A program made the translations under genes and the position numbers. 64,000 bases of DNA from positions 372,001 through 436,000 of the forward strand of contig NZ_QAYX01000025.1 in the NCBI RefSeq assembly GCF_003054705.1, written 5' to 3'. This stretch comes from Opitutus sp. ER46. GTDB lineage: Bacteria; Verrucomicrobiota; Verrucomicrobiia; Opitutales; Opitutaceae. Position 1 is the stretch's first letter. Every line of letters begins with the position of its first letter. Below, in pieces: positions 5,283 to 56,257 of the stretch. The notes below the pieces were generated by a model. That model saw only the letters and a program-made list of their open reading frames with translations. It was not told the origin of the DNA and searched no databases.

Positions 5283-5363
5283 CGCGAAAGCTCCCATGCG
5301 GATCCCTGCGGCTGAACTCTCCGTGGCGCGTCATCGGCGCTCCGCCACGCCCCTTCGTTTCCC

Positions 5364-6224
5364 ATGCTCGTAATCCTGGGTGGTATCATCGTCTTGGGCG
5401 CCATGCTCGGCGGCTTCGTGCTGGCCGGTGGCAACCCGGTCTTGCTGCTGCATGTATCCGAGTTTGTGGTCATTCTCGGCATCGCCGCGGGCGTGCTCGT
5501 CATCGCGAGCCCGGGACACGTGCTCAAGGAGTTGGCCCACAAGGTTATCGGCTCCATTACGGCGAAAGCCACCAGCCAGGCCGAATTCGTCGAGATTCTG
5601 AAGCTGCTGTACGAGATCTTCATGGTCGGCCGGCGCAACGGCCTGATCGCCCTCGAAGAGCACGTCATGGACCCCGAGAAGAGCTCCATCTTCAAGCGGT
5701 ACCCGGCCATCCTGGATCACCCCGAGCGCCTCGAGTTTCTGTGCAACGGCCTCAAGCCCGTCATCGACGGCAAGATCAAGCCCGACCAGCTCGAGAATCT
5801 GATGCAGGCCGAACTCGACTCCAAGTCGTCGGAGGCGGATCACCCGGTCCACGTCTTGAACCTGGTGGGCGACTCGTTGCCTGGCATTGGCATCGTCGCG
5901 GCGGTGCTGGGCATCATCAACACGATGGCCTCCATCGCCGAGGGCCCGGCGGCCGTCGGTGAGAAGGTGGCCGCGGCGCTCACCGGTACCCTGCTCGGCG
6001 TGTTCTTCGCATACGGCTTCGTCAACCCGCTCGCGAATCGCATCAAGTTCAACAATGCCGCCGACGAGCAGATCCTCCGCTGCATCATGCAGGCGGTCGC
6101 CGGCTTCGCCAAGGGCCTCGCTCCCATGACCGCAGTCGAGGTCGCGCGGCGCTCGCTCGACAGCAACGTCCAGCCCAACGCAGGCGAACTCGAGGTGACG
6201 CTCAAGTCCCTCTCTGCGAAATAG
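5364..6224 (+). CDS. motA: Flagellar motor stator protein MotA
   Basis: MotA/PomA-type stator subunit, 286 aa, which with MotB forms the ion channel that drives flagellar rotation. It starts with a membrane helix (MLVILGGIIVLGAMLGGFVLA), has a second helix at about 33-50, the large cytoplasmic loop with many charged residues (about 55-160), and the two C-terminal helices (DSLPGIGIVAAVLGIINTM and LTGTLLGVFFAYGFVNPLA). It is 3 nt upstream of motB, as expected for translationally linked partners. Confidence 0.96.
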   Translation: MLVILGGIIVLGAMLGGFVLAGGNPVLLLHVSEFVVILGIAAGVLVIASPGHVLKELAHKVIGSITAKATSQAEFVEILKLLYEIFMVGRRNGLIALEEHVMDPEKSSIFKRYPAILDHPERLEFLCNGLKPVIDGKIKPDQLENLMQAELDSKSSEADHPVHVLNLVGDSLPGIGIVAAVLGIINTMASIAEGPAAVGEKVAAALTGTLLGVFFAYGFVNPLANRIKFNNAADEQILRCIMQAVAGFAKGLAPMTAVEVARRSLDSNVQPNAGELEVTLKSLSAK

Positions 6225-6227
6225 GCG

Positions 6228-7046
6228 ATGGCCAAGAAGAAGGATGCTCATCACGGCGGCGCCTGGAAGGTCGCCTACGCGGACTTCGTCACCGCGATGA
6301 TGGCGCTTTTCCTCGTGCTATGGATCTGCGCGCAGGAACCCAATATCGTCCTGGCCACCTCGCAGTACTTCAAGAACCCGTTCCTCGCGACCGCTGCCGA
6401 TGCGACGTCGGGCGTCCTGCCTTTTAACAACAAGCGCTCCACGCCGAACACCAGCAGCGGCGAGGAGTCCGGCACCCAGAAGGAGAAGGAAAACCAGCAG
6501 AACGTGAAGCTGACCCTTCTCAATAGCGTGGCGGCAGACTTCTACCGCCTGCTGCACCTCGAGGAGAATATGGCCGAGGCCCCGATCGACGTGGAAATCA
6601 CCGCCGACGGCCTGCGGGTCACGGTGTTCGATCGCGGGCGGAAGCCGCTCTTCGTCTCCGACACCGCCGAGCTCACCGAGTGGGGCCGGTTCGTCATGCA
6701 GAATCTCGCCTGGGTCATCGACCGGCACCGGTTCCGCGTTGTGATCGACGGTCATACGCGGTCGGGCATCGTCGCCACGAAACCCGACTACAGCGCGTGG
6801 GAACTCTCGTCGGATCGCGCCTTGGCCGCCCGACGTGCCCTCGTGCACTACGCCGTCGACGACGACCTCATCGAGCGCGTCACCGGCTACGGCGACACAC
6901 ACCCGGTGCCAGGCGTCGCGCGCGACGCCGAAGCCAATCAGCGCATCACTGTCAGTCTCAGCCTGTCCACCCGGTCGCTCCGAGACACCAAGCTCGTCGA
7001 GCAGCCTGTCCGGAAGCTGGAATACGGGACGAAGTCGAAGCCATGA
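6228..7046 (+). CDS. motB: Flagellar motor stator protein MotB
   Basis: MotB, 272 aa. The start MAKKKDAHHGGAWKVAYADF is typical: a short basic cytoplasmic tail, then the single membrane helix carrying the ion-binding Asp (in YADFVTAMMALF). The C-terminal OmpA/MotB peptidoglycan-binding domain covers about residues 120-255, with the conserved DGHT and the SSDRALAARRALV helix. Its stop codon overlaps the next ATG (ATGA at 7043-7046). Whether the stator uses protons or sodium cannot be decided from this sequence. Confidence 0.96.
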   Translation: MAKKKDAHHGGAWKVAYADFVTAMMALFLVLWICAQEPNIVLATSQYFKNPFLATAADATSGVLPFNNKRSTPNTSSGEESGTQKEKENQQNVKLTLLNSVAADFYRLLHLEENMAEAPIDVEITADGLRVTVFDRGRKPLFVSDTAELTEWGRFVMQNLAWVIDRHRFRVVIDGHTRSGIVATKPDYSAWELSSDRALAARRALVHYAVDDDLIERVTGYGDTHPVPGVARDAEANQRITVSLSLSTRSLRDTKLVEQPVRKLEYGTKSKP

Positions 7047-7282
7047 AACCCTTTCTCCAAGGCAAAAAGGAACTGAATATGAAGTCTTTGCGTGCGGGCG
7101 CGCAGGAAGCGTCGGCGCACCACGGACCTCACGCGTTGTCGCCGTTGGCGGCCAGCGCGCCGGGAGCATCGCACGCCCAGGTCGAGGTGGTGAAGGAAGG
7201 CGACAAGATCGTCCGCCTGATCATTACCTGCGTCTGCGGCGAGCGCACCGAGATCGAGTGCCTGTACCCGCCGGGCCGCTGA
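7043..7282 (+). CDS. Small Cys-motif protein overlapping motB
   Basis: A 79-aa protein, not assigned to a family. Its ATG overlaps the motB stop (ATGA), so translational coupling is likely. The first half is polar and of low complexity; the last 33 residues look like a small folded beta unit with a CxC and a third Cys (ITCVCGERTEIECLYPPGR), which could bind metal or form a disulfide. An internal ATG at 7079 is an alternative start. The function is unknown; the context points to the motor or the basal body. Confidence 0.65.
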   Translation: MKPFLQGKKELNMKSLRAGAQEASAHHGPHALSPLAASAPGASHAQVEVVKEGDKIVRLIITCVCGERTEIECLYPPGR

Positions 7283-7597
7283 GCGGCCGTGGTGCGGAAT
7301 CCGCCGGCAGGGATCGCCGGCAACCTGGTCTGCCTTGGCGCCAGCCATTGGCAGGGCAGGGCAACCTTGCTGTGCCCGGCTACCCCTGCGGGCTCGCTTC
7401 CTTCCGGCTGTCCCATGCCTCCGGTCAGGGGCGGCATGTCGGCTGGGCAATTCCTGCCGCCGCACCCGGAGCGCGGGAGTGCAGGGGTGGGGCAGGAAAT
7501 GCCACGAAAAAATCTGAAAAGTTTAATTCTCGGATTATAGGTAAGTTGCGCGCGTTGGAACGGCCGCGGCACACGGATGGCTTAAGCCTCCGCGTCC
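7283..7597. other. Noncoding gap between the motor genes and flgF
   Basis: 315 bp without a supportable gene. The first 220 bp are GC-rich with several short imperfect inverted repeats (for example around the GGCAGGG...CCCTGCG blocks). The end is strikingly AT-rich for this genome. No tRNA or other RNA gene is recognisable. Confidence 0.6.
7506..7548 (+). promoter_or_regulatory. AT-rich promoter-like segment upstream of flgF
   Basis: A 40-bp AT-rich island in an otherwise GC-rich gap, containing AAAAGTTTAATT and GGATTATAGG about 50-80 bp before the flgF ATG. AAAAGTTT resembles the -35 of sigma-28 promoters, but no GCCGATAA-like -10 stands at the right distance; GATTAT could be a housekeeping -10. 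This is a weak call made mainly on composition and position at the start of the rod-gene block. Confidence 0.3.
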
Positions 7598-8347
7598 ATG
7601 AACATCGGCCTCTATCAAAGTGCATCTGCTCTCAGCGCCCTTGAGCGCTGGCAGGAGGCCGTCGCGCAAAACATCACCTCGAGCGAGACGAACGGTTACC
7701 GGAAGCGGACGATCAACATCAGCACCACGACGGCCGGAGAGATCCAGGCTGACCCGCGGGCGAAGATCGGCAGCGACTCCACGTTCCAGACGCTGTTCCC
7801 GAAGGTGAACACCGGCGTGAACTATGGCGGTGGACAGACCCAGCCCACGAAGCGCGACCTCGACGTTGCGATCCAGGGCGATGGCTTTTTCGAAGTGCAG
7901 ATGCCGGACGGCTCCCGGGCTTACACCCGCAACGGCGAGTTTCACCTCCGGCAGGATCGCACGCTCGTCGGCGCCGGCGGGGCGGAAGTCCTGACGGACA
8001 GCGGCGCCCCGATCACGCTGCTCCAGAATGGCAAGAGCCTGGTTGTGAATCGCGACGGCACGCTGTTCCAGGGCGACGTCGCCCTCGGCCGGCTCTCGAT
8101 CCAGCGGTTCGCCAATAATGCCGCCCTCGTCCCGACTTCCGGTGGATTCTTTATCCCCGGCGCCGGCGGCCAGCCCGAACCCGTGGCCGAGCCGGACCTC
8201 CTGCAGGGCTATCTTGAGAGCAGCAACGTCACCCCGCTCCGCGAGATGGTCGACCTCGTCCTCATTTCCCGGGCCTACGAAGCCAACCAGAAGATCATCA
8301 CCACGATTGATCAGCAGATGGAGAAGACGCTCCAGGCCCTCGGCTGA
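7598..8347 (+). CDS. flgF: Flagellar proximal rod protein FlgF
   Basis: FlgF-type rod protein, 249 aa. The N-terminal helix (MNIGLYQSASALSALERWQEAVAQNI) and the C-terminal helix (YLESSNVTPLREMVDLVLISRAYEANQKII) are the conserved ends that form the D0 domain of axial proteins. The core carries the DLDVAIQGDGFFEVQMPDG signature of FlgE/F/G proteins. It precedes flgG with a 159-bp gap. FlgF rather than FlgG is chosen because the following gene is the better FlgG; the two families are closely related. Confidence 0.92.
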   Translation: MNIGLYQSASALSALERWQEAVAQNITSSETNGYRKRTINISTTTAGEIQADPRAKIGSDSTFQTLFPKVNTGVNYGGGQTQPTKRDLDVAIQGDGFFEVQMPDGSRAYTRNGEFHLRQDRTLVGAGGAEVLTDSGAPITLLQNGKSLVVNRDGTLFQGDVALGRLSIQRFANNAALVPTSGGFFIPGAGGQPEPVAEPDLLQGYLESSNVTPLREMVDLVLISRAYEANQKIITTIDQQMEKTLQALG

Positions 8348-49255: not shown

Positions 49256-49570
49256 GAGGACGGGTGGGGTTGAGCGCCGCGGCAGGGGTGCCGAGGTCGC
49301 GGGGTTTGCCGTGGCCGCATCGTACCCCGCCGCCGCCGGCGAAAGGTATCCTCAGTCCTCAGGATTTCGGTTACTGCCGCGGGCGGCTGGCCTGAACGGA
49401 GCGTTCCGTAGCTTGTAGATAACGCGTCGCTCTCGGTTCGTGGCGCAGACGAATCTTGGACTGTATGGTGTTCAGGACCTCAGGCCGCGTTTCCATTCTG
49501 GAAGCCGCCCGCAGCTAATTGCCCGCCAGTCCGCGAAGGTCGATTTTAGGCCTGATCTTCTGCGACGATC
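49256..49570. other. Gap with the PL6 promoter and the left edge of the cassette region
   Basis: 315 bp without a well-supported gene. The first 110 bp carry the leader and promoter of the PL6 gene; the remainder has lower GC and no motif I recognise. A weak 67-aa frame (49440-49643) starts with GTG and overlaps the next gene; I do not call it. Confidence 0.6.
49299..49365 (-). promoter_or_regulatory. Promoter and operator-like repeat of the PL6 gene
   Basis: On the - strand: ATCCTGAG-GA-CTGAGGAT (49348-49365; also a direct repeat CTGAGGA-CTGAGGA), ACCTTT (49342-49347), a 17-bp spacer, TACGAT (49319-49324) and the leader CGGCAAACCCCGC (49299-49311). It matches the TonB receptor promoter element by element while the spacer bases differ, which points to conserved function. 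Confidence 0.75.
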
Positions 49571-49984
49571 ATGTTCACTGGTGGTCGTGAATTCGTTTAT
49601 ACGGGACAGTTCAGTTCGATTAGTGCCGACGGGGTCGGCCTAGACACACGTTCGGCCATGTACATCGGTACCGTATTCGCTGCTCTAGCGCTTTCATACG
49701 TGCTCGCATGTACTTTTGCCATCTGGTCCTCGTGCACCCTAGCAGCAGCGCGACGCCGACGACTACTGTTCATCTCTTGGAGCATTACCGCGGGCCTGTT
49801 ACTCACCACCGGTTTCCTTTCTTGGATCCTCCGAGATGGGCTCGGACCAGGATCGGTACCTAGCAGCGGCTCCGCAGCACTGAGACGTTTCGTGCACGAG
49901 TGGTGGTTCCCCTGCGTAGTCCTTCTTGCCGTGCCGTCGTTTTGTTCGGTTTTCTCACGCTGCGCCTGTTCGCCCCGGGCCTAA
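49571..49984 (+). CDS. Small membrane protein, first gene of the cassette array
   Basis: A 137-aa protein, not recognised. It has three hydrophobic segments (about 31-52, 66-85 and 112-128) separated by Arg-rich loops. Its stop codon TAA (49982-49984) lies inside GCCTAAC, the R''-type core of the palindrome that follows, as is usual for integron gene cassettes. Base composition is lower in GC than the flanking lyase genes. No promoter is evident. Confidence 0.65.
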   Translation: MFTGGREFVYTGQFSSISADGVGLDTRSAMYIGTVFAALALSYVLACTFAIWSSCTLAAARRRRLLFISWSITAGLLLTTGFLSWILRDGLGPGSVPSSGSAALRRFVHEWWFPCVVLLAVPSFCSVFSRCACSPRA

Positions 49985-50093
49985 CCAGAGCGCCCGAGCG
50001 AATGCTCACCATTCGTCAATTGTCGCACGTCACTTCCGTGCATGAACCTCCGACCCTAAACCCAGTGAGCGTAGCTCATCGCTGACGTTCGGC
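49979..50093 (+). repeat. attC-like recombination site A (115 bp)
   Basis: GCCTAAC at the left (R'' type) and GTTCGGC at the right (R' type). The left arm pairs with the reverse complement of the right arm over GCC-AAC, AGCG, GAGC and GCTCAC, with short unpaired spacers in between; the centre is unrelated. This is the layout of an integron attC hairpin. The next gene starts 7 nt after the right core. Confidence 0.75.
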
Positions 50094-50100
50094 AAAATAC

Positions 50101-50433
50101 ATGGTCGCTTTCCGGGAAGTCAGAATTCGCATCGTAGCAACCCCTCCGGGCGAAGCGCCGCTTGAGGTGCGGGAGCAGTGGGTAGGCCTCGAGCTTCCCC
50201 TCATGGGTGGCGAGGTGTCTGCCGTACAGATCGAGACGTGCGGTGTTGTGACCGGCGAGATCGATCGTGAAGAGACTATCGGCTACGTTATTGATATCGA
50301 GGACGCTATGCTGGCGTTGGCGTCGAAATCTCCCAGTGCTGTGGCTTGGTGGCGGACCAATGCAGCGCACCTGTTTGAAGCAGGGGGGACGTTAGTGTTT
50401 CACGAGTACGTCTGTCGGTTGGTCGAGCTTTGA
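50101..50433 (+). CDS. Unrecognised small soluble protein in the cassette array
   Basis: A 110-aa protein without signal peptide or membrane segment. It is well balanced in composition and looks like a genuine small alpha/beta fold (VREQWVGLELPLMGG; EETIGYVIDIEDAMLAL). The start is 7 nt after the attC-like site A and the TGA stop lies 3 nt before the GCCGAAC core of the next site, so gene and site form a compact cassette. I do not recognise a family. Confidence 0.7.
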   Translation: MVAFREVRIRIVATPPGEAPLEVREQWVGLELPLMGGEVSAVQIETCGVVTGEIDREETIGYVIDIEDAMLALASKSPSAVAWWRTNAAHLFEAGGTLVFHEYVCRLVEL

Positions 50434-50436
50434 ATC

Positions 50437-50559
50437 GCCGAACCAGAGTGCCCGAGCGAGCGCGCACCATCTGTCCTTCTCTGGGCGGCATTGTTGCCGT
50501 GGCGAACCTGGCTCGCCAAGCATCGTATGGCCGCGTGGTGCTGATGTATGACGCTCGTC
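50437..50559 (+). repeat. attC-like site B (degenerate, 123 bp)
   Basis: Begins GCCGAACCAGAGTGCCCGAGCGAG, close to site A, and ends with TGATGTATGACGCTCGTC, which aligns with the right end of site A at 14 of 20 positions. Arm pairing is weaker than in site A, so this copy may be decayed. Confidence 0.55.
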
Positions 50560-50573
50560 CGTAATTCCGCACA

Positions 50574-50707
50574 GGAAGAACCAATTGCCCGAGCTAACGA
50601 GCTTCACGACCAATGATTCGAACACTCCCTCAGCGATCCATCCGGCCCCGTAGCTCGCGATCCACGGCTTGTCCCGTCGCGCTCGTGGCTCATCTTTGAG
50701 GGTAGGC
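50574..50707 (+). repeat. attC-like site C (134 bp)
   Basis: Contains AACCAATTGCCCGAGC, the shared core, followed by ACGAGC; these pair with GCTCGTGGCTC near the right end, which closes with GGTAGGC just before the next ATG. The outer cores are degenerate. Sites B and C are nearly adjacent, so a former gene between them may be lost. Confidence 0.5.
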
Positions 50708-50711
50708 CAAC

Positions 50712-51023
50712 ATGAAGATAGGCAAACTCACGTCATTGGTCGACGGTCCAGAGCGAGATGTCCTGGTCCGAATCTCCTCGCTCGAACTCTTCTCCGGCAT
50801 TTCCGATCCACCTGGCACCATCGACGGCCACGAGGTTGTCGGCTGCGATGTGGTGGGCGAGCGACGCTGGTTCAGATCACCAATCTACCGCTTGTACATT
50901 CGACTGAAAGGGGGACGCCGGGTCCTTTTCTACAGTGCAAAAGAGCAGCTCGACGTGGCGCTGCTTCTGGATGAATTCCAGGCGTCGTTCCGCGATGCCC
51001 AGTGTACGTGGGACAAGGCCTAA
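50712..51023 (+). CDS. Unrecognised small protein in the cassette array
   Basis: A 103-aa soluble protein. It looks beta-rich (RDVLVRISSLELFSGI; WFRSPIYRLYIRLKGGRRVLFYS), with no signal peptide. It starts 4 nt after site C, and its TAA stop (51021-51023) is embedded in GCCTAAC, which here opens the first 209-bp repeat instead of a normal attC. Function unknown. Confidence 0.65.
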   Translation: MKIGKLTSLVDGPERDVLVRISSLELFSGISDPPGTIDGHEVVGCDVVGERRWFRSPIYRLYIRLKGGRRVLFYSAKEQLDVALLLDEFQASFRDAQCTWDKA

Positions 51024-51226
51024 CCCGGAGAGTTCTGTTTCGGCGAAGCCCGAAACAGGACGCTTGTTGAACAAGCCCGGTTCGAAGACCACGCCGCGGT
51101 GAATCGCCCGCTTATGCGGAATGTGTTTGGCCGTTGGAGCCGAGTGAGCGTGCGACGGGAGCCGATACGGTGGTGGGAGTGACGGCGGACGAATGGGCGA
51201 GAGGGGCTTTGAGCGTGCCGATTGCG
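51018..51226 (+). repeat. 209-bp direct repeat, copy 1
   Basis: Begins at GCCTAAC and ends at GCCGATTGCG; matches 54629-54837 with about six substitutions and no indels. It contains the hairpin CTGTTTCGG / CCGAAACAG. The right part does not end in a recognisable attC core. Confidence 0.95.
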
Positions 51227-51765
51227 TCAACGGGCGACAAATCGACCGAAGTCCCGACCGGAGTCCAAAGCGGCGGCTGGCCGCGCAGGGCGGCCAGGGT
51301 CGGATCGGAATGAATCCGGTATGAACTCATGCCGCGGAGGGGAGAGGCGGTCCGGTGGTGCGGTGGCAGAGTCGGACGGAGCCGTCGGGTTGGCAGGGGG
51401 GCGACGGGGTCAGGCCGATATTTGCTAGAGAACGTGCGGTGAGAGCCTGGGTGCATGAAATCTAGCGAATATCGGCCTGACCCCGTGGGCCGTGGGCCGA
51501 TCACAATCACTGCGAGTATTTCCTGACGATGGACAGCAAGCTGATCCGGTCGGTCGCTTCGCGTAAGCGCAAGACCTCGCTCCGACTTGTGACCCCAAGC
51601 CAGTTCCTCGCGGAGTTCGAAAGCTTGCGGCCCGCTGCTGAACTTGAGCGGAGTGCCTGGCTCAAGCTTCGCGAGAAGTGAGACGGTAAGGGCGGTGCCG
51701 CACCAGCCTGCGATCCAGGATTGGACTTCCGGCGCGAGGGCGACCTCGTCAACCTCGACCACCCA
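51227..51765. other. Noncoding stretch with an inverted repeat
   Basis: 539 bp between the first 209-bp repeat and the protease gene. It contains the REPIN-like inverted repeat at 51404-51486; outside this I see no supportable gene. A - strand frame (51112-51762) crosses the repeat and has no protein-like features. Confidence 0.55.
51404..51486. repeat. REPIN/MITE-like inverted repeat
   Basis: Arms of 26 bp (ACGGGGTCAGGCCGATATTT.. / ..AATATCGGCCTGACCCCGT) with one mismatch around a 31-nt centre. The GGGGTCAGGC ends resemble those of palindromes moved by REP-associated tyrosine (Y1) transposases. No transposase is present here. Confidence 0.8.
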
Positions 51766-52776
51766 ATGCCGAATCAGCTACCGCTCATTCCCGTCGCCGG
51801 CTATGGCGAGATCGCAGACGTGAGCGACGTGCCGGAGCTGCGCAGGTCGGTATTCCCCCTGGTTTTCTCGAACCTCGATGGAACGTTTCTCTACCACGGT
51901 AGTTGTTTCTCCGTCTCTTACTCCGGGGGGTTCTGCACGGCGATGCACGTCATCAACGACGGCTTTGGTTCGAGACGTGGCGACGAAATGAAACGGCTGG
52001 GCGCCTATGGCCTGATTTTTGTGCCGGGGGTCTGTTACGGGGCCCCAATATTGCACCCTTTTCGTCAACTGGACGGGAACGTGCTAATGTTTCCGCGTGA
52101 TCCAAATCCCCTGGCGTACCGCACCGAGCGTGATCCGGACGACATCGGTTACGATATTGCTCGCGTGCGATTTGCGTTGCAGGCCGGCGACAGGCCTCGG
52201 CCGCTTTGGGTGCACTGCGGATTGTGGGCATCGCTAAAGGAGGGCGATGACGTAGTTGCAGTCGGCTTCAACGAGGCTCTTGGCACCTCCTCGACCAAAG
52301 AGGATTTAATGCATTACTCCGATCAATTGTCAGCCTGCCGGCTGAAGGTCACTGGCCTCGAAATCCGTGAGCCCGGTGCCCTGGGGGGCGGCCCGATCAT
52401 GACGCTCAACGCGAATATCCCTCCGGGGTTCAGCGGCGGTCCGATCTTCGCAGGAAACGGTGCAGTGGTCGGTTTGGTTTCTACCGGGATCGCGGGCGCA
52501 GCACACGGCACTGGAGTCTGGCTTGAACCTTACGGGATCCAGGACACCCGTCGGCCCGAGTCATCGTGGCTCCCCGATGTCTTCCCTGACCAATGCCATA
52601 ACTCCCAGGATCTCTTCGAGGCGTGGGGGGTAGTTCCTCCCGGGACCACGGATTGGAAAGAAGTTCATTGGGAAAAGGCGAAGGCGGAGAAGATCGCTGC
52701 CGGCCTGTCTGGAAGCATCCGCAGAATGTGGCAGAATAATGATGGGACAGTCTGCGTAACCGCGGATCGATCCTGA
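51766..52776 (+). CDS. Trypsin-like serine protease (cytosolic type)
   Basis: A 336-aa protein with a chymotrypsin-fold triad: His61 in FCTAMHVIND, Asp130 in IGYDIARVRF, Ser223 in PGFSGGPIF. There is no signal peptide or membrane segment, so it probably acts inside the cell, unlike housekeeping S1 proteases of the HtrA type; no PDZ domain is present. A TTG at 51721 could extend the N-terminus by 15 residues. It lies between two 209-bp direct repeats with a nuclease-like gene and a broken second protease gene, a setting that suggests a conflict or defence role. Confidence 0.8.
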   Translation: MPNQLPLIPVAGYGEIADVSDVPELRRSVFPLVFSNLDGTFLYHGSCFSVSYSGGFCTAMHVINDGFGSRRGDEMKRLGAYGLIFVPGVCYGAPILHPFRQLDGNVLMFPRDPNPLAYRTERDPDDIGYDIARVRFALQAGDRPRPLWVHCGLWASLKEGDDVVAVGFNEALGTSSTKEDLMHYSDQLSACRLKVTGLEIREPGALGGGPIMTLNANIPPGFSGGPIFAGNGAVVGLVSTGIAGAAHGTGVWLEPYGIQDTRRPESSWLPDVFPDQCHNSQDLFEAWGVVPPGTTDWKEVHWEKAKAEKIAAGLSGSIRRMWQNNDGTVCVTADRS

Positions 52777-53110
52777 CTAAAGTGAAGGCTCCTCCTGCCC
52801 GCCGCGAAAATTGTGCCTCGGCCGTCAAGGTAATGCTCCTTCGTCGCCTCCACCTTGACTGCCGGAAAAGGCCGCGGCTATTCGGGGCAGGTGGAGCGCT
52901 GGCATTCTTTTCTGTGTTTGCACGACGGCCTGCTCCGATGATTTTGCGCTCCGACCCTGAAACGTTGAAGATGCCATGCCGGATATTAATGTCGCGAGGT
53001 CCTTGACCTATATCGGCCCCCGAAAGGCCCTGCTCCTCTGCATGGTGTGGGACATGGGATTTCAGTTGGGTCAGGCCGGGGGAGCGCCTTCCACTTGGCG
53101 GAGGAGAGGC
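52777..53110. other. Gap before the nuclease-like gene
   Basis: 334 bp. The frame of the following gene is open upstream to an ATG at 52976, but that extension looks noncoding (low-complexity, repeated Met and Gly). Nothing else is recognisable. Confidence 0.5.
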
Positions 53111-53608
53111 ATGCGTCCGCGGCTGTTCATGCGTCAGGCCGGGCTCATGTGCATGGGTCGAAAGGCGCTGCACCCGGAAGATCACTGGGCTTTTGCTCTC
53201 TGGCCGGAGGAAAACAGCCCCGTGGATGCTGTATTTCGTCGGCGATCGCCGGCAGGCAACGAGGAATTCGAGTTCGTCCAGCTGAAAGAATTTGTGCCCG
53301 AGGACCTGAATCCGCGGCAGTCACTCCAGTCATTGCTGGATCGGCTGATGGGGAGGTATCCGGAGGCCGGCGGGTTCACGATCGGAATCAATGTCAATCG
53401 CGACGCGACTACGAATCTCGGGCAGCTCCGCGTGCCTCCACTCCGCAACGGAAGCATCTGGCTATTTGGCGTCGGGGGTGAAGCCCCGTTCGACTGCTTC
53501 CTCCTTGGCGACCTGCTGCGGCCGGCGGAGCTCACAGGCTGCTTCTTCATGCATCCCCGTTTTCAGCCCGGTGAATCCCCGCTTTCCCTAGGGAACATGG
53601 CTGACTGA
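53111..53608 (+). CDS. Possible PD-(D/E)xK nuclease-like protein
   Basis: A 165-aa protein. The ATG at 53111 is chosen because it has a strong Shine-Dalgarno sequence (GGAGGAGAGG) just upstream. The segment SPVDAVFRR ... EFEFVQLKEF has the spacing of a PD-(D/E)xK nuclease core in which the second acidic residue is Gln (D-x(n)-QxK), and a helix SLQSLLDRLMGRYP and strand FTIGINVNRD follow. This reading is motif-based and uncertain; the family is not otherwise recognised. It lies between the two trypsin-like genes. Confidence 0.6.
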   Translation: MRPRLFMRQAGLMCMGRKALHPEDHWAFALWPEENSPVDAVFRRRSPAGNEEFEFVQLKEFVPEDLNPRQSLQSLLDRLMGRYPEAGGFTIGINVNRDATTNLGQLRVPPLRNGSIWLFGVGGEAPFDCFLLGDLLRPAELTGCFFMHPRFQPGESPLSLGNMAD

Positions 53609-53718
53609 GGTGCACGAGCGGGCGAGACTTTCTCGCGCAATCGACGCGCGGAGAGACGGCGTCGCCCGGGAGTGTTTGATCGTTGTAACGGTACGCGCCA
53701 GGGCTCTGCTGCTTCCCT

Positions 53719-54713
53719 ATGCCCGCGCGCCACACGACGACCCTAGTTGCAATCACGCGGCACAGGCGCGGCGAGAAACCCGAGCAGATGGGTTCCGGCG
53801 TGCTGGTCACGCTCTTCGGAAAGTATTTCTTGCTGTCCGCGACCCACGTCCTGGAGGAATCGAGTATAGTGACGGCACCCGCTACGATGATCCGCTGGAT
53901 GTGGGATTTATCCTCTTGAACGATGATGCGGTGCGGAGTCTTGTCCGTGCCGGGCGGACCTTCCTCTCCGCGCATGACGTCCCCATTCAGGTGGAGGGCT
54001 TCCGGGACACGGTGTACGTATTCAGCGGATTTCCCGCGAGTCACTCCACGACCAGAATGCGGCCGACCGTTGTGGAGTCGACGCCGACATTCATCCGCGG
54101 GAAGGGGCTTTCCGCCGAGCGCATGTTCCGGCTCAATCGCGATCCGCTGCTCCACATGGCAGTTGATTATGACCGCGAGCGCCAGCAGGACGAGGACACC
54201 GGCGTCCGCATCAACGGACCACAACCGGACGGAATGTCGGGTGGTCCGGTGTGGCTCATCCTGCCCAACGGCATGCCGGTGCTGATGGCTATCGGAACGT
54301 TTCACGATCCCGTGAACCGCGTTCTCATCGGAACATTCCTTCAGCCGGTCATCAGGCTGCTGAAGCAGACACTCGACCTGACGTCTCGGTCGGGAGACGC
54401 GCGGCGGGACACGCTCATCACAATCCCCGACCGGCTGATCGGCGCGCTGGGCGGGATCAAGATTCGCGTCCAGATGAGCGCCAGCACGCACGGGCCGGCG
54501 ATGATGGCGACGGGTGATCTCGTATTCGAAAACCGCGAACGCGATCGGGCCGTCGCAACGGTCAGGTTCCCGACCGGCGCGCAACGCACTCTGACCCAGC
54601 CGGAGATCGATTCGCTTGAATGGGCGCAGCCTAACCCTGAGAGCTCTGTTTCGGCGAAGCCCGAAACAGGACGCTTGTTGAACAATCCTGGTTCGAAGAC
54701 CACGCCGCGGTGA
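53719..54713 (+). pseudogene. Frameshifted second trypsin-like protease gene
   Basis: A trypsin-like gene split over two frames. Frame 1 (53719-53919) gives the N-terminal part with the catalytic His43 (LLSATHVL). The Asp region (YDDPLDVGFILL) and the Ser region (PDGMSGGPVW) are read in the frame that stays open to 54713. A single indel near 53860-53880 would restore one protein. The end also runs past GCCTAAC into the 209-bp repeat, so the original stop is lost. It is related in design, not closely in sequence, to the protease at 51766. Confidence 0.7.
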
Positions 54714-54837
54714 ACCGCCCGCTTATGCGGAATGTGTTTGGCCGTTGGAGCCGAGTGAGCGTGCGACGGGAGCCGATACGGTGGTGGGAGTGACGGCGGA
54801 CGAATGGGCGAGAGGGGGTTTGAGCGTGCCGATTGCG
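54629..54837 (+). repeat. 209-bp direct repeat, copy 2
   Basis: About 97% identical to 51018-51226, same orientation and same GCCTAAC start. Together the copies bracket a 3.4-kb unit with both trypsin-like genes. Confidence 0.95.
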
Positions 54838-55152
54838 CGCCTTAATGGCTGTGGGTTTATGGTTAGTCATGACCACAACATCCTTGCCGATCCCGGCTCG
54901 CCCTACCACCTTCGCGACGACCGACCTCGCCGTAGATCAACGACCGCCAAGGCAGTACCACCGACTCATCCCATGCTCACCGCACCGCACCGCCGCGCAG
55001 CGGCTTGGTTCAACCAGTCGCCCGAGCCAATGAGCTGCTATCGGCGTGATTCTCGCATTTCATTTCCGCTCCACCCTGTGCGACCAAACGGCTCGCCCGC
55101 TCGGGTGAGGGCGCATCTTTGATATTCGGCAGATCGCAATAGAACGAACCGC
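54838..55152. other. Stretch with attC-like site E and a possible gene remnant
   Basis: 315 bp. A 66-aa frame (54833-55033) starts with a signal-peptide-like segment (LMAVGLWLVMTTTSLPIPA) but runs into the attC-like site and is probably a remnant; I do not call it as a gene. Confidence 0.45.
55008..55130 (+). repeat. attC-like site E (123 bp)
   Basis: Opens with GTTCAAC, which fits the RYYYAAC core, followed by the shared AACCAGTCGCCCGAGC, and closes with ATTCGGC (expected GTTCGGC). Internal GCCC and GAGC blocks have complements near the right end. The next gene starts 22 nt later. Confidence 0.5.
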
Positions 55153-55368
55153 ATGTCATCGATCGCAGCTGCTATATTTCTCCTGGCTGCAGCTGGTTTC
55201 GCGTTCAGTACGGCGACGGTCCAATGGCGCTCCCTCCGTGACCATCCACGCGCTGAGATGGTTCGGAGAGTACTCGGCGATGCCGGCGCCCGATCCTTCT
55301 ATGTCCTGCTGGGTCTCGCTCTTCTGGCCCTCGCCACCGGAACACTATGGTCGCGCTTCGTCCCCTAA
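55153..55368 (+). CDS. Small two-helix membrane protein, resembles immunity-type proteins
   Basis: A 71-aa protein with two membrane helices (about 3-22 and 47-66) and a short cytosolic loop containing RRVLGDAGARSFYVLLGLALLALATG. The GAR-x-FY-x-LLG pattern before the second helix resembles the small Imm17-type immunity proteins, but the match is by eye only. The TAA stop is inside CCCTAAC (55363-55369), followed by another attC-like left arm. Confidence 0.65.
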   Translation: MSSIAAAIFLLAAAGFAFSTATVQWRSLRDHPRAEMVRRVLGDAGARSFYVLLGLALLALATGTLWSRFVP

Positions 55369-55410
55369 CGGACGCTCCAGCCGAACCAGTCGCCCGAGCC
55401 TACGCGCCTA
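55363..55410 (+). repeat. attC-like site F (left arm, incomplete)
   Basis: CCCTAAC overlaps the preceding stop, and GCCGAACCAGTCGCCCGAGC follows at 55380-55399. The stretch ends in GTGATTCGAAC about 35 nt later, like site C (TGATTCGAAC). No right-hand core is seen before the next gene. Confidence 0.45.
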
Positions 55411-55450
55411 CTTTGCCGTGATTCGAACCTTCCAGTCTCCGCTCCAACTG

Positions 55451-56032
55451 ATGCGAAGAGCGCTCCAGCTAGTCTGTCACCGATTCCGGCTGCTTGGCGC
55501 GACTCTGTTTGTCGTCGTCTTTTCGGGGTGTGAAGTCTTGGACCCGCCGCGCGCCACCACTCTCTCGCCGCTGCCCGTGACTGCTGTCCTGACAGGTGCA
55601 GCACCTGGCGATACCTTCGAACTGCTTACATTGCCATATCCCGCTGCAAAGATCGTGGAACGGCATCAGGTTCCCGTTGGCAACTATCTGCGCAACGCCT
55701 TTCAGAGAGGTTTGCCGAATGCCTCTGTGGCCATTCGGGCTTGGGAGCCTTCCGCCGATGTAGAGGGTACATTGGGGCCACACGTAGTGATGAAGCTTGG
55801 ATTTGAGATGGCGATTCGCACCAACGGCACCGAGCGGCGCGTGGCTGATTTTGTCTCAGCCGATGTTGGGGCTTTATATGTCTCACATCTTTCAACCACT
55901 GGGCTTCATTCGGTCGACTCACACGAAATCTCTCGACCAATCCATGACCAGCTCCGCCCCTTTCTGGATATGGTGGTCGAGAAAGTTAAGTGGCGCCTTC
56001 GTGAAACCGAGTCTCCTCCTGCCGAAAATTGA
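55451..56032 (+). CDS. Unrecognised lipoprotein in the cassette array
   Basis: A 193-aa exported protein with a lipobox (VVFSGC, Cys28) and a mature alpha/beta-looking domain (LLTLPYPAAKIVERHQVPVGNYLRNAF; VVMKLGFEMAIRTNG; VEKVKWRL). It probably sits in a membrane facing the periplasm. I do not recognise a family. The start is at the ATG at 55451, which gives a normal signal peptide; the frame remains open far upstream through the attC-like site. Confidence 0.7.
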   Translation: MRRALQLVCHRFRLLGATLFVVVFSGCEVLDPPRATTLSPLPVTAVLTGAAPGDTFELLTLPYPAAKIVERHQVPVGNYLRNAFQRGLPNASVAIRAWEPSADVEGTLGPHVVMKLGFEMAIRTNGTERRVADFVSADVGALYVSHLSTTGLHSVDSHEISRPIHDQLRPFLDMVVEKVKWRLRETESPPAEN

Positions 56033-56038
56033 GCTCCG

Positions 56039-56257
56039 ATGATCTCCAAGACGGATAGCTTCCAAAGAGCCTTTGTCCGCTTTCTCGCGGCCGCATGCCT
56101 GTCTGTCGCCGCCGAGCCAAAGATCTGTCGGATAGAGGGCGCCTTTGGCCTCAAGCTTGGTGACCAGTTCGCCTCGGGAAAAGCGGTCGGCAATGCCGCG
56201 CTCACCCCCGGCATTCCGATGTATCAGTTTGCCCCTCAGGCGCTCAGCGGGGATTGA
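56039..56257 (+). CDS. Truncated small exported protein at the right edge of the array
   Basis: A 72-aa frame that starts 6 nt after the preceding stop. It begins like an exported protein (RFLAAACLSVAAEPKICRIEGAFGLKLGDQF) and then ends after PQALSGD, exactly where it meets the stop codon of the convergent beta-helix gene (56244). The abrupt end suggests that the 3' part of a longer gene was removed at this junction. Confidence 0.45.
   Translation: MISKTDSFQRAFVRFLAAACLSVAAEPKICRIEGAFGLKLGDQFASGKAVGNAALTPGIPMYQFAPQALSGD

Follow-up and report, generated by a model that had tools for sequence, protein, structure and literature searches.

The 64,000-nucleotide (nt) stretch of the Opitutus sp. 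ER46 genome analysed here (the window; G000:C25:372001-436000 of a 5.71 Mb genome in 25 contigs) contains, between 49,979 and approximately 55,424, what is in all likelihood the remnant of a chromosomal integron cassette array, that is, a cluster of attC sites lacking integron integrases (CALIN), in which two attC sites have been invaded by an element of the IS91 family of transposons. An attC cassette array without an integrase had been proposed by the initial annotation from the sequence alone, and this stands: a covariance model trained on other genomes (R1) recovers the sites, and related sites occupy arrays beside the integrase gene, intI. Two features had escaped that annotation, namely that a repeat at 51018 and 54629 is a transposon end inserted in attC cores, and that two of the five sites (B and E) consist of little beyond their left halves, with both cores intact in site A alone. 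CALINs and the routes by which they form are described in the accessible text of PMC9024848 and PMC8618304, the latter also recording integrons in Verrucomicrobiota. The features of the array, in which R'' and R' denote the left and right cores of an attC, and ori and ter the two ends of the element, are as follows.

49571..49984, + strand: cassette open reading frame (ORF), 137 amino acids (aa), no Pfam family; its stop lies within the R'' core of site A
49979..50093, + strand: attC site A, cores GCCTAAC and GTTCGGC both intact; R1 32.9 bits, E 3.3e-6
50101..50433, + strand: cassette ORF, 110 aa; 14 other relatives, all unnamed or hypothetical
50437..50475, + strand: site B, left arm of an attC (GCCGAACCAG...), core GCCGAAC, right arm decayed; 82% identity to A over 39 nt, no R1 match
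50575..50707, + strand: attC site C, two arms, altered cores GAAGAAC and GGTAGGC; R1 28.3 bits, E 4.9e-5
50712..51023, + strand: cassette ORF of 103 aa without a Pfam family, ending in a stop inside the core at 51018
51018..51024, + strand: R'' core GCCTAAC, the rest of the attC missing (compare the ori flanks in relatives)
51025..51226, + strand: copy 1 of the IS91-like element, of which just the ori end is present; transposase not found, and no ter in the following 3.2 kb
51721..52776, + strand: trypsin-like peptidase ORF, 351 aa; PF13365, E 2.7e-8; 5 other relatives
52976..53608, + strand: ORF, 210 aa, no family
53719..54629, + strand: second peptidase-like stretch in two frames, recognised by eye; no family match
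54629..54635, + strand: R'' core GCCTAAC of the attC that continues today as site D
54636..55011, + strand: copy 2 of the IS91-like element, internally deleted, 376 nt, no genes; ori part to 54837, ter end 54990-55011
55008..55130, + strand: attC site D, R'' box GTTCAAC (GTTC from the ter end), R' ATTCGGC; R1 20.5 bits, E 0.0051
55153..55368, + strand: cassette ORF, 71 aa; weak match only
55380..55424, + strand: site E, left arm of an attC (GCCGAACCAGTCGCCCGAGCC), core GCCGAAC, right half unconvincing; R1 18.0 bits, E 0.022 over 55380-55513
55451..56032, + strand: ORF of 193 aa without a family; judged by eye, its start is lipoprotein-like

The identity of the attC sites was established with R1, the training sites of which came from a two-arm scan around integrases, using a pattern derived from the window's motif and from the first sites seen in relatives. 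Outside the window, 23 of 40 loci together yielded 90 rows, and a single shuffled version of the 40 yielded one row; judged by eye, most of the rows are sites in arrays and some are not. Thirty-seven were picked by hand, representing 18 loci in 13 other genomes of the family Opitutaceae; 16 of these loci hold an intI match (that in L118 being partial and below the cut-off), and L081 and L119 hold none. Their consensus is GCCnAACCAGnCGCCAGAGCCAACG...CGTGGCTCATCTTnAACGTTnGGC, and when the R''/R' and L boxes are paired, 89.0% of cells are paired, compared to 20-33% in slid versions of the alignment. Seven of the 15 pairs have changed on both sides, a value reached by 29 of 500 shuffles, and 37 cells carry such double changes against a shuffle mean of 15.3, which none of 500 shuffles reach. 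Within the window R1 matches A, C, D and E, the next match scoring 10.2 bits (E 2.2), and the same four are the only matches at E <= 10 in the genome, in a search that scored 150 of the 6416 first-look candidates. The pairing that the initial annotation described at site A is reproduced by the covariance model, which scores the site as listed above. Across the genus, R1 matches at E <= 0.1 are found in 20 of 27 genomes, this one included; another, G104, has an intI over the cut-off yet no R1 match at that threshold. Elsewhere in the family, 212 attC-like sites have an A-rich tract of approximately 10 nt directly before the R'' core, which is absent at site A of the window.

The region had originally drawn attention through five copies of the motif AACCAR-N(2-3)-GCCCGAGC, reported at 49983, 50441, 50579, 55012 and 55384; all five are there, on the + strand, and a repeat search identifies them as portions of repeats of approximately 40 nt. 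Allowing up to two mismatches, the N2 form of the motif occurs seven times in the window (shuffle mean 1.63; 0 of 100 shuffles reach seven), and the N3 form three times (shuffle mean 1.83; 29 of 100 reach three), so that the count exceeds chance for the N2 form only, though both N3 copies are exact. Further sites were sought genome-wide, as the initial annotation had suggested, and of seven exact copies in total five belong to the array, while the reversed control gives none. With one mismatch, however, the N2 form occurs 19 times in the genome against 12 for its reversed control, and the short motif alone is therefore unspecific and proves little. Genes were said to begin 4-22 nt after the right-hand cores, and they do so at 7 nt (A), 4 nt (C) and 22 nt (D). 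The claim that three stop codons lie within cores is borne out in part: the stops at 49982 and 51021 do fall in GCCTAAC and that at 55366 in CCCTAAC, but the latter two heptamers are not cores of an intact detected attC. The one at 51018 is part of an attC that the transposon end has split, and no detected attC has its R'' at 55363, where CCCTAAC stands; the core of site E is GCCGAAC at 55380.

Integron integrases are common in this family; among 150 sampled genomes, the TIGR02249 profile has matches at E <= 1e-40 in 62 and over its curated cut-off in 54. A profile search likewise agreed with the annotation that the window lacks an integrase, and extended this to the whole genome, where no intI exceeds the cut-off and the best TIGR02249 stretch scores 77 against 265 bits. 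The two best TIGR02249 regions of the genome are of Xer type, one scoring over the XerD cut-off and the other being nearest to XerC, below its cut-off. G133, G052 and G046 each have copies of the motif that run in cassette direction, at a distance of 2-5 kb from an intI match. With sites A and C 482 nt apart, both matching at E < 1e-4, and no intI over the cut-off genome-wide, the region classifies as a CALIN and not as a complete integron.

The repeat that interrupts the array, 209 nt long and 97% identical between its copies at 51018 and 54629, is the ori end of an IS91-family transposon. Matches to it at E <= 1e-3 occur in 26 of 150 genomes, many over the first 50-60 nt, and many of the records carrying it are Opitutaceae (Opitutus, Didemnitutus, Oleiharenicola). 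In G049 it forms the end of elements of approximately 2.5 kb, the copies of which are approximately 94-98% identical and encode, on the strand opposite to the repeat, an IS91-family transposase (NF033538, 359.8 bits against a cut-off of 125) with Y2_Tnp (PF04986) and Zn_Tnp_IS91 (PF14319) domains. The repeat sits downstream of the transposase gene, which is where ori is found in IS91 elements; these generally insert next to GTTC or CTTG without target duplication. A second gene of the element encodes a tyrosine recombinase. Among NCBIfam models this protein scores best with that of the integron integrase, at 162 bits, short of the 265-bit cut-off; in L086 the gene occupies 6997-7962 (-). The ter end of copy 2 in the window is identical to that of the G049 element at 22 of 22 nt.

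At E <= 1e-60, the element's transposase is found in 12 of 150 genomes and not in this one. Both ends and a GTTN flank are present in relatives, the A(A/T)C letters beside the two ends differing in some copies, where recombination between element copies could have mixed the flanks. Where at least 3 kb is available downstream of an ori end (31 cases), ter follows within 3.2 kb in eight, and among 22 of the other 23 that were searched, pieces of the transposase are kept in eight, so at least those copies are truncated. In L256 (3700-3725) and L221, ori ends are nested, one starting directly after a GTTC inside another, as though GTTCAAC of the element itself could serve as its target. In L034 (1500-1660) and L037 (936-1100), an ori-like end follows the last attC of an array and is succeeded by a stretch that looks by eye like an intrinsic terminator, with no ter. 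In L075 (514-1600) of G104, a genome of the same genus, two ori-like ends surround approximately 1 kb that resembles a toxin-antitoxin system by eye, in a locus with no R1 attC.

The sequence into which the element has inserted is, in most copies, an attC core. We examined 69 distinct ori ends, from loci up to L240 and including copy 1 of the window, and the heptamer [AG]N[CT]NA[AT]C immediately precedes 57 of them, against a background of 0.75% of positions in the same loci. The two sets of loci were counted apart because some had been found with a query containing GCCTAAC. In the 58 loci located with an internal motif (11 of them without an ori end), 41 of 52 ori ends have an R''-like flank; in the 24 located by their transposase (8 without an ori end), 15 of 17 do. 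The loci are not a random draw, L172 and L173 having come from an attC search. Upstream of ori, 61 of the 69 have G at -7, 59 have C at -5 and only 3 have A at -4, and positions -18 to -8 are A-rich. The 212 attC-like sites mentioned above, none of which lies beside a ter, resemble these flanks, with frequencies of 0.89 (G), 0.92 (C) and 0.02 (A) and an A-rich approach; there is also agreement in A at -3 and A/T at -2, letters that the search pattern for the 212 sites itself contained.

With up to one mismatch allowed, CGCRGCGGCTTSGTTC identifies 22 distinct ter ends, one of which, in L081, reaches the contig end and is perhaps the same junction as L029. Among the 21 that can be tested, 17 start an R1 match exactly at their own GTTC; R1 had been trained on three of these junctions (one in L067, two in L086), another is that of the window, and the one in L080 is weak (16.7 bits, E 0.1). 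An intact case is provided by L255 in the same-genus genome G168 (contig C1). Two attC sites, 601-742 and 1640-1768, come first there, and after them a GCCCAAC core, the ori at 2385, a ter that ends at 5305 and a further attC, 5302-5400, scoring 61.4 bits. In the same locus another ori is preceded by a core, GGCTAAC, at 5958, and the transposase of this second copy (its contig is also L204) is a relative, 65% identical.

These features suggest a history for the locus. An integron integrase would have joined cassettes at attC sites of the form GCCNAACCAG-NN-GCYNGAGCCAACG ... CGTGGCTCATC-N-AACGTTNGGC, after which the integrase was presumably lost, or the cassettes had landed off-target, leaving the sites to erode and the genes to be retained passively. 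An IS91-family rolling-circle element would then have entered the R'' cores of two attC sites, with the transposase probably inserting at the GTTN of the core such that the ori end abuts GCCNAAC, and with the ter end, which closes in GTTC, placing GTTCAAC before what remained of the attC. Since GTTCAAC has the form RYYYAAC, that attC may still be usable. One of the invaders would subsequently have been reduced to the 376-nt copy without genes and the other to its ori end. More generally, we lean towards the view that an Opitutaceae lineage of rolling-circle IS91 elements homes to the R'' core of attC and is adapted to riding integrons, that the GTTC of ter rebuilds R'' so that the attC stays usable and the transposon joins the upstream cassette, and that the decay of such copies helps to break arrays up.

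Several observations weigh against this account. The training sites of R1 were first picked by a pattern modelled on the window's own motif, the assignment of A, C, D and E depends on this family-specific model and not on IntegronFinder or HattCI, and the small share of first-look candidates scored also bounds the genome-wide search. D and E match only weakly. On neither strand do A, C and D reach a minimum folding energy better than that of shuffled sequences (z -0.9 to +0.6). A RYYYAAC-like R'' paired with a GTTRRRY-like R' is present in A alone, the cores of C and D being altered and B and E retaining the left core only; intact cores in one of five sites indicate an array in decay, which fits long abandonment. 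An intI could also be hidden in a gap of the assembly, given its 25 contigs. Regarding the transposon, the ter match in the window is short, at just 22 nt, 12 of 69 ori ends lie outside attC-like sequence, and 4 of 21 ter ends do not run into an attC (L067 at 12051, L149, L158 and L219). L158 also lacks an R''-like ori flank (it has GGAAAAC), from which it follows that the element can insert elsewhere.

The most serious alternative, to which we give a clearly lesser though not negligible chance, is that no complete integron ever stood here, and that the cluster grew on the spot from off-target cassette insertions at attG-like sites by an integrase encoded elsewhere or since gone. Off-target insertion is a route to CALINs in the accessible text of PMC8618304, and neither an intI remnant nor an attI was recognised beside the array, although no search aimed at attI was made. 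However, at least five sites in one direction over 5.5 kb resemble a piece of an array more than a series of single landings, and the genome itself has no integrase over the cut-off at all; past integrase activity, followed by loss of the integrase, is the reading we favour. That the sites are ordinary intergenic repeats akin to repetitive extragenic palindromes, with no link to recombination, is scarcely credible; they are indeed palindromic and intergenic, but R1 finds them in this genome only here, and in other genomes they are arrayed next to intI at the spacing of cassettes, with attC cores and covariation.

Two further alternatives concern the 209-nt repeat, which we regard as a transposon end that inserted in attC cores, probably aimed there by its HUH transposase. 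Its first 55 nt could be taken for a second, shorter type of attC (R'' GCCTAAC, R' GTTGAAC), given the attC-like core at its start, a stem with compensating changes and its occurrence in arrays beside intI. We tried and rejected this reading, which is very unlikely to be correct: homology runs unbroken through the supposed R', the repeat in G049 ends the elements that carry an IS91 transposase, and R1 has no match to it. Among 28 and 27 array copies inspected, none has homology ending at GTTGAAC inside ori, and hence there is no sign that IntI uses that motif. It is also improbable that the interval bounded by the copy 1 ori and the copy 2 ter (51,025-55,011) is a composite unit that brought the peptidase genes in by one-ended, ISCR-like transposition. 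An ori and one ter in the same orientation do bracket three ORF stretches with no R1 attC between them, but the core and ori of copy 2 also lie inside the segment, plain truncation of copy 1 gives the same picture, and only short pieces of the segment match in the 26 other genomes of the genus.

The second of the peptidase-like stretches is probably a broken gene, being spread over two frames. Profile libraries give no family at cut-off for the remaining cassette ORFs that were run, and the window contains no tRNA gene and no Rfam family at gathering score. No convincing transposase remains are present in 51018-55012, the unmasked tblastn matches being weak and spread across the whole window. 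An imperfect palindrome at 51399-51491 (two 31-nt arms around 31 nt, GGGGTCAGGCCGATATT...) is present as a single copy in this genome and has weak relatives in G054 (two) and G152 (one), and the inter-ORF stretch 52789-52903 has matches of 77-83% similarity in G006, G169 and G168 of the same genus. To the left of the array, the flanking gene is matched at E <= 1e-40 in 3 of the 26 other genus genomes, by distant relatives of 36-38% identity only. For the two carbohydrate loci that the initial annotation placed on either side, the family matches are weak.

Compared to known systems, the array has the hallmarks of a CALIN as set out in the accessible text of PMC9024848 and PMC8618304, namely multiple attC sites that share an orientation, each with a small unrelated ORF close by, and no intI; it differs in that two of its sites carry IS91-like remnants in the R'' core and in that most cores are altered. 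The element in relatives resembles the IS91 family, including ISCR, in its NF033538 transposase with Y2_Tnp and Zn_Tnp_IS91 domains, its conserved ori-like end downstream of the gene and the GTTN by the ori end. Unlike these, it also has a tyrosine recombinase and sits inside attC cores in a fixed orientation, and the window copies have no genes. IS91-like elements beside attC have been glimpsed before, as ISShvi3 and ISCR28, which we liken to this one by their descriptions and not by their sequences. The available portion of PMC9229058 reads an IS91-like element next to attC as a new cassette structure and reports finding no insertion sequence that interrupts attC, while that of PMC12772301 places attC at the end of, or right after, an IS91-like element and gives no junction data. 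Other mobile elements are associated with attC. The IS1111-attC elements ISKpn4 and ISPst6 target one end of attC (PMC11187229, in its accessible part) by means of a DEDD transposase and a guide RNA, in contrast to the HUH-type transposase and tyrosine recombinase here. The group IIC-attC introns, which the accessible parts of PMC7923331 and PMC9229058 treat as mobile elements at attC, are retroelements with a reverse transcriptase, whereas this element encodes an IS91 transposase, and profile searches find no reverse transcriptase family in its two proteins. CALINs are known, and insertion of an IS91 lineage inside attC cores was not found described in the literature searched, largely without subscription papers; a separate search found no paper on an integron integrase in Opitutus.

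As a CALIN, the array is one more known case in a family where integrases are common, and the invading element matters more. Sites of the attC type are recombined as folded single strands, and HUH elements also act on single strands. If the preference for attC cores is true, the element would be a third kind of attC-homing element besides the IS1111-attC elements and the group IIC introns, and the preference would give the published sightings of ISCR28 and ISShvi3 beside attC a concrete interpretation. If, moreover, the ter end rebuilds R'', an integrase could move the transposon as cassette cargo.

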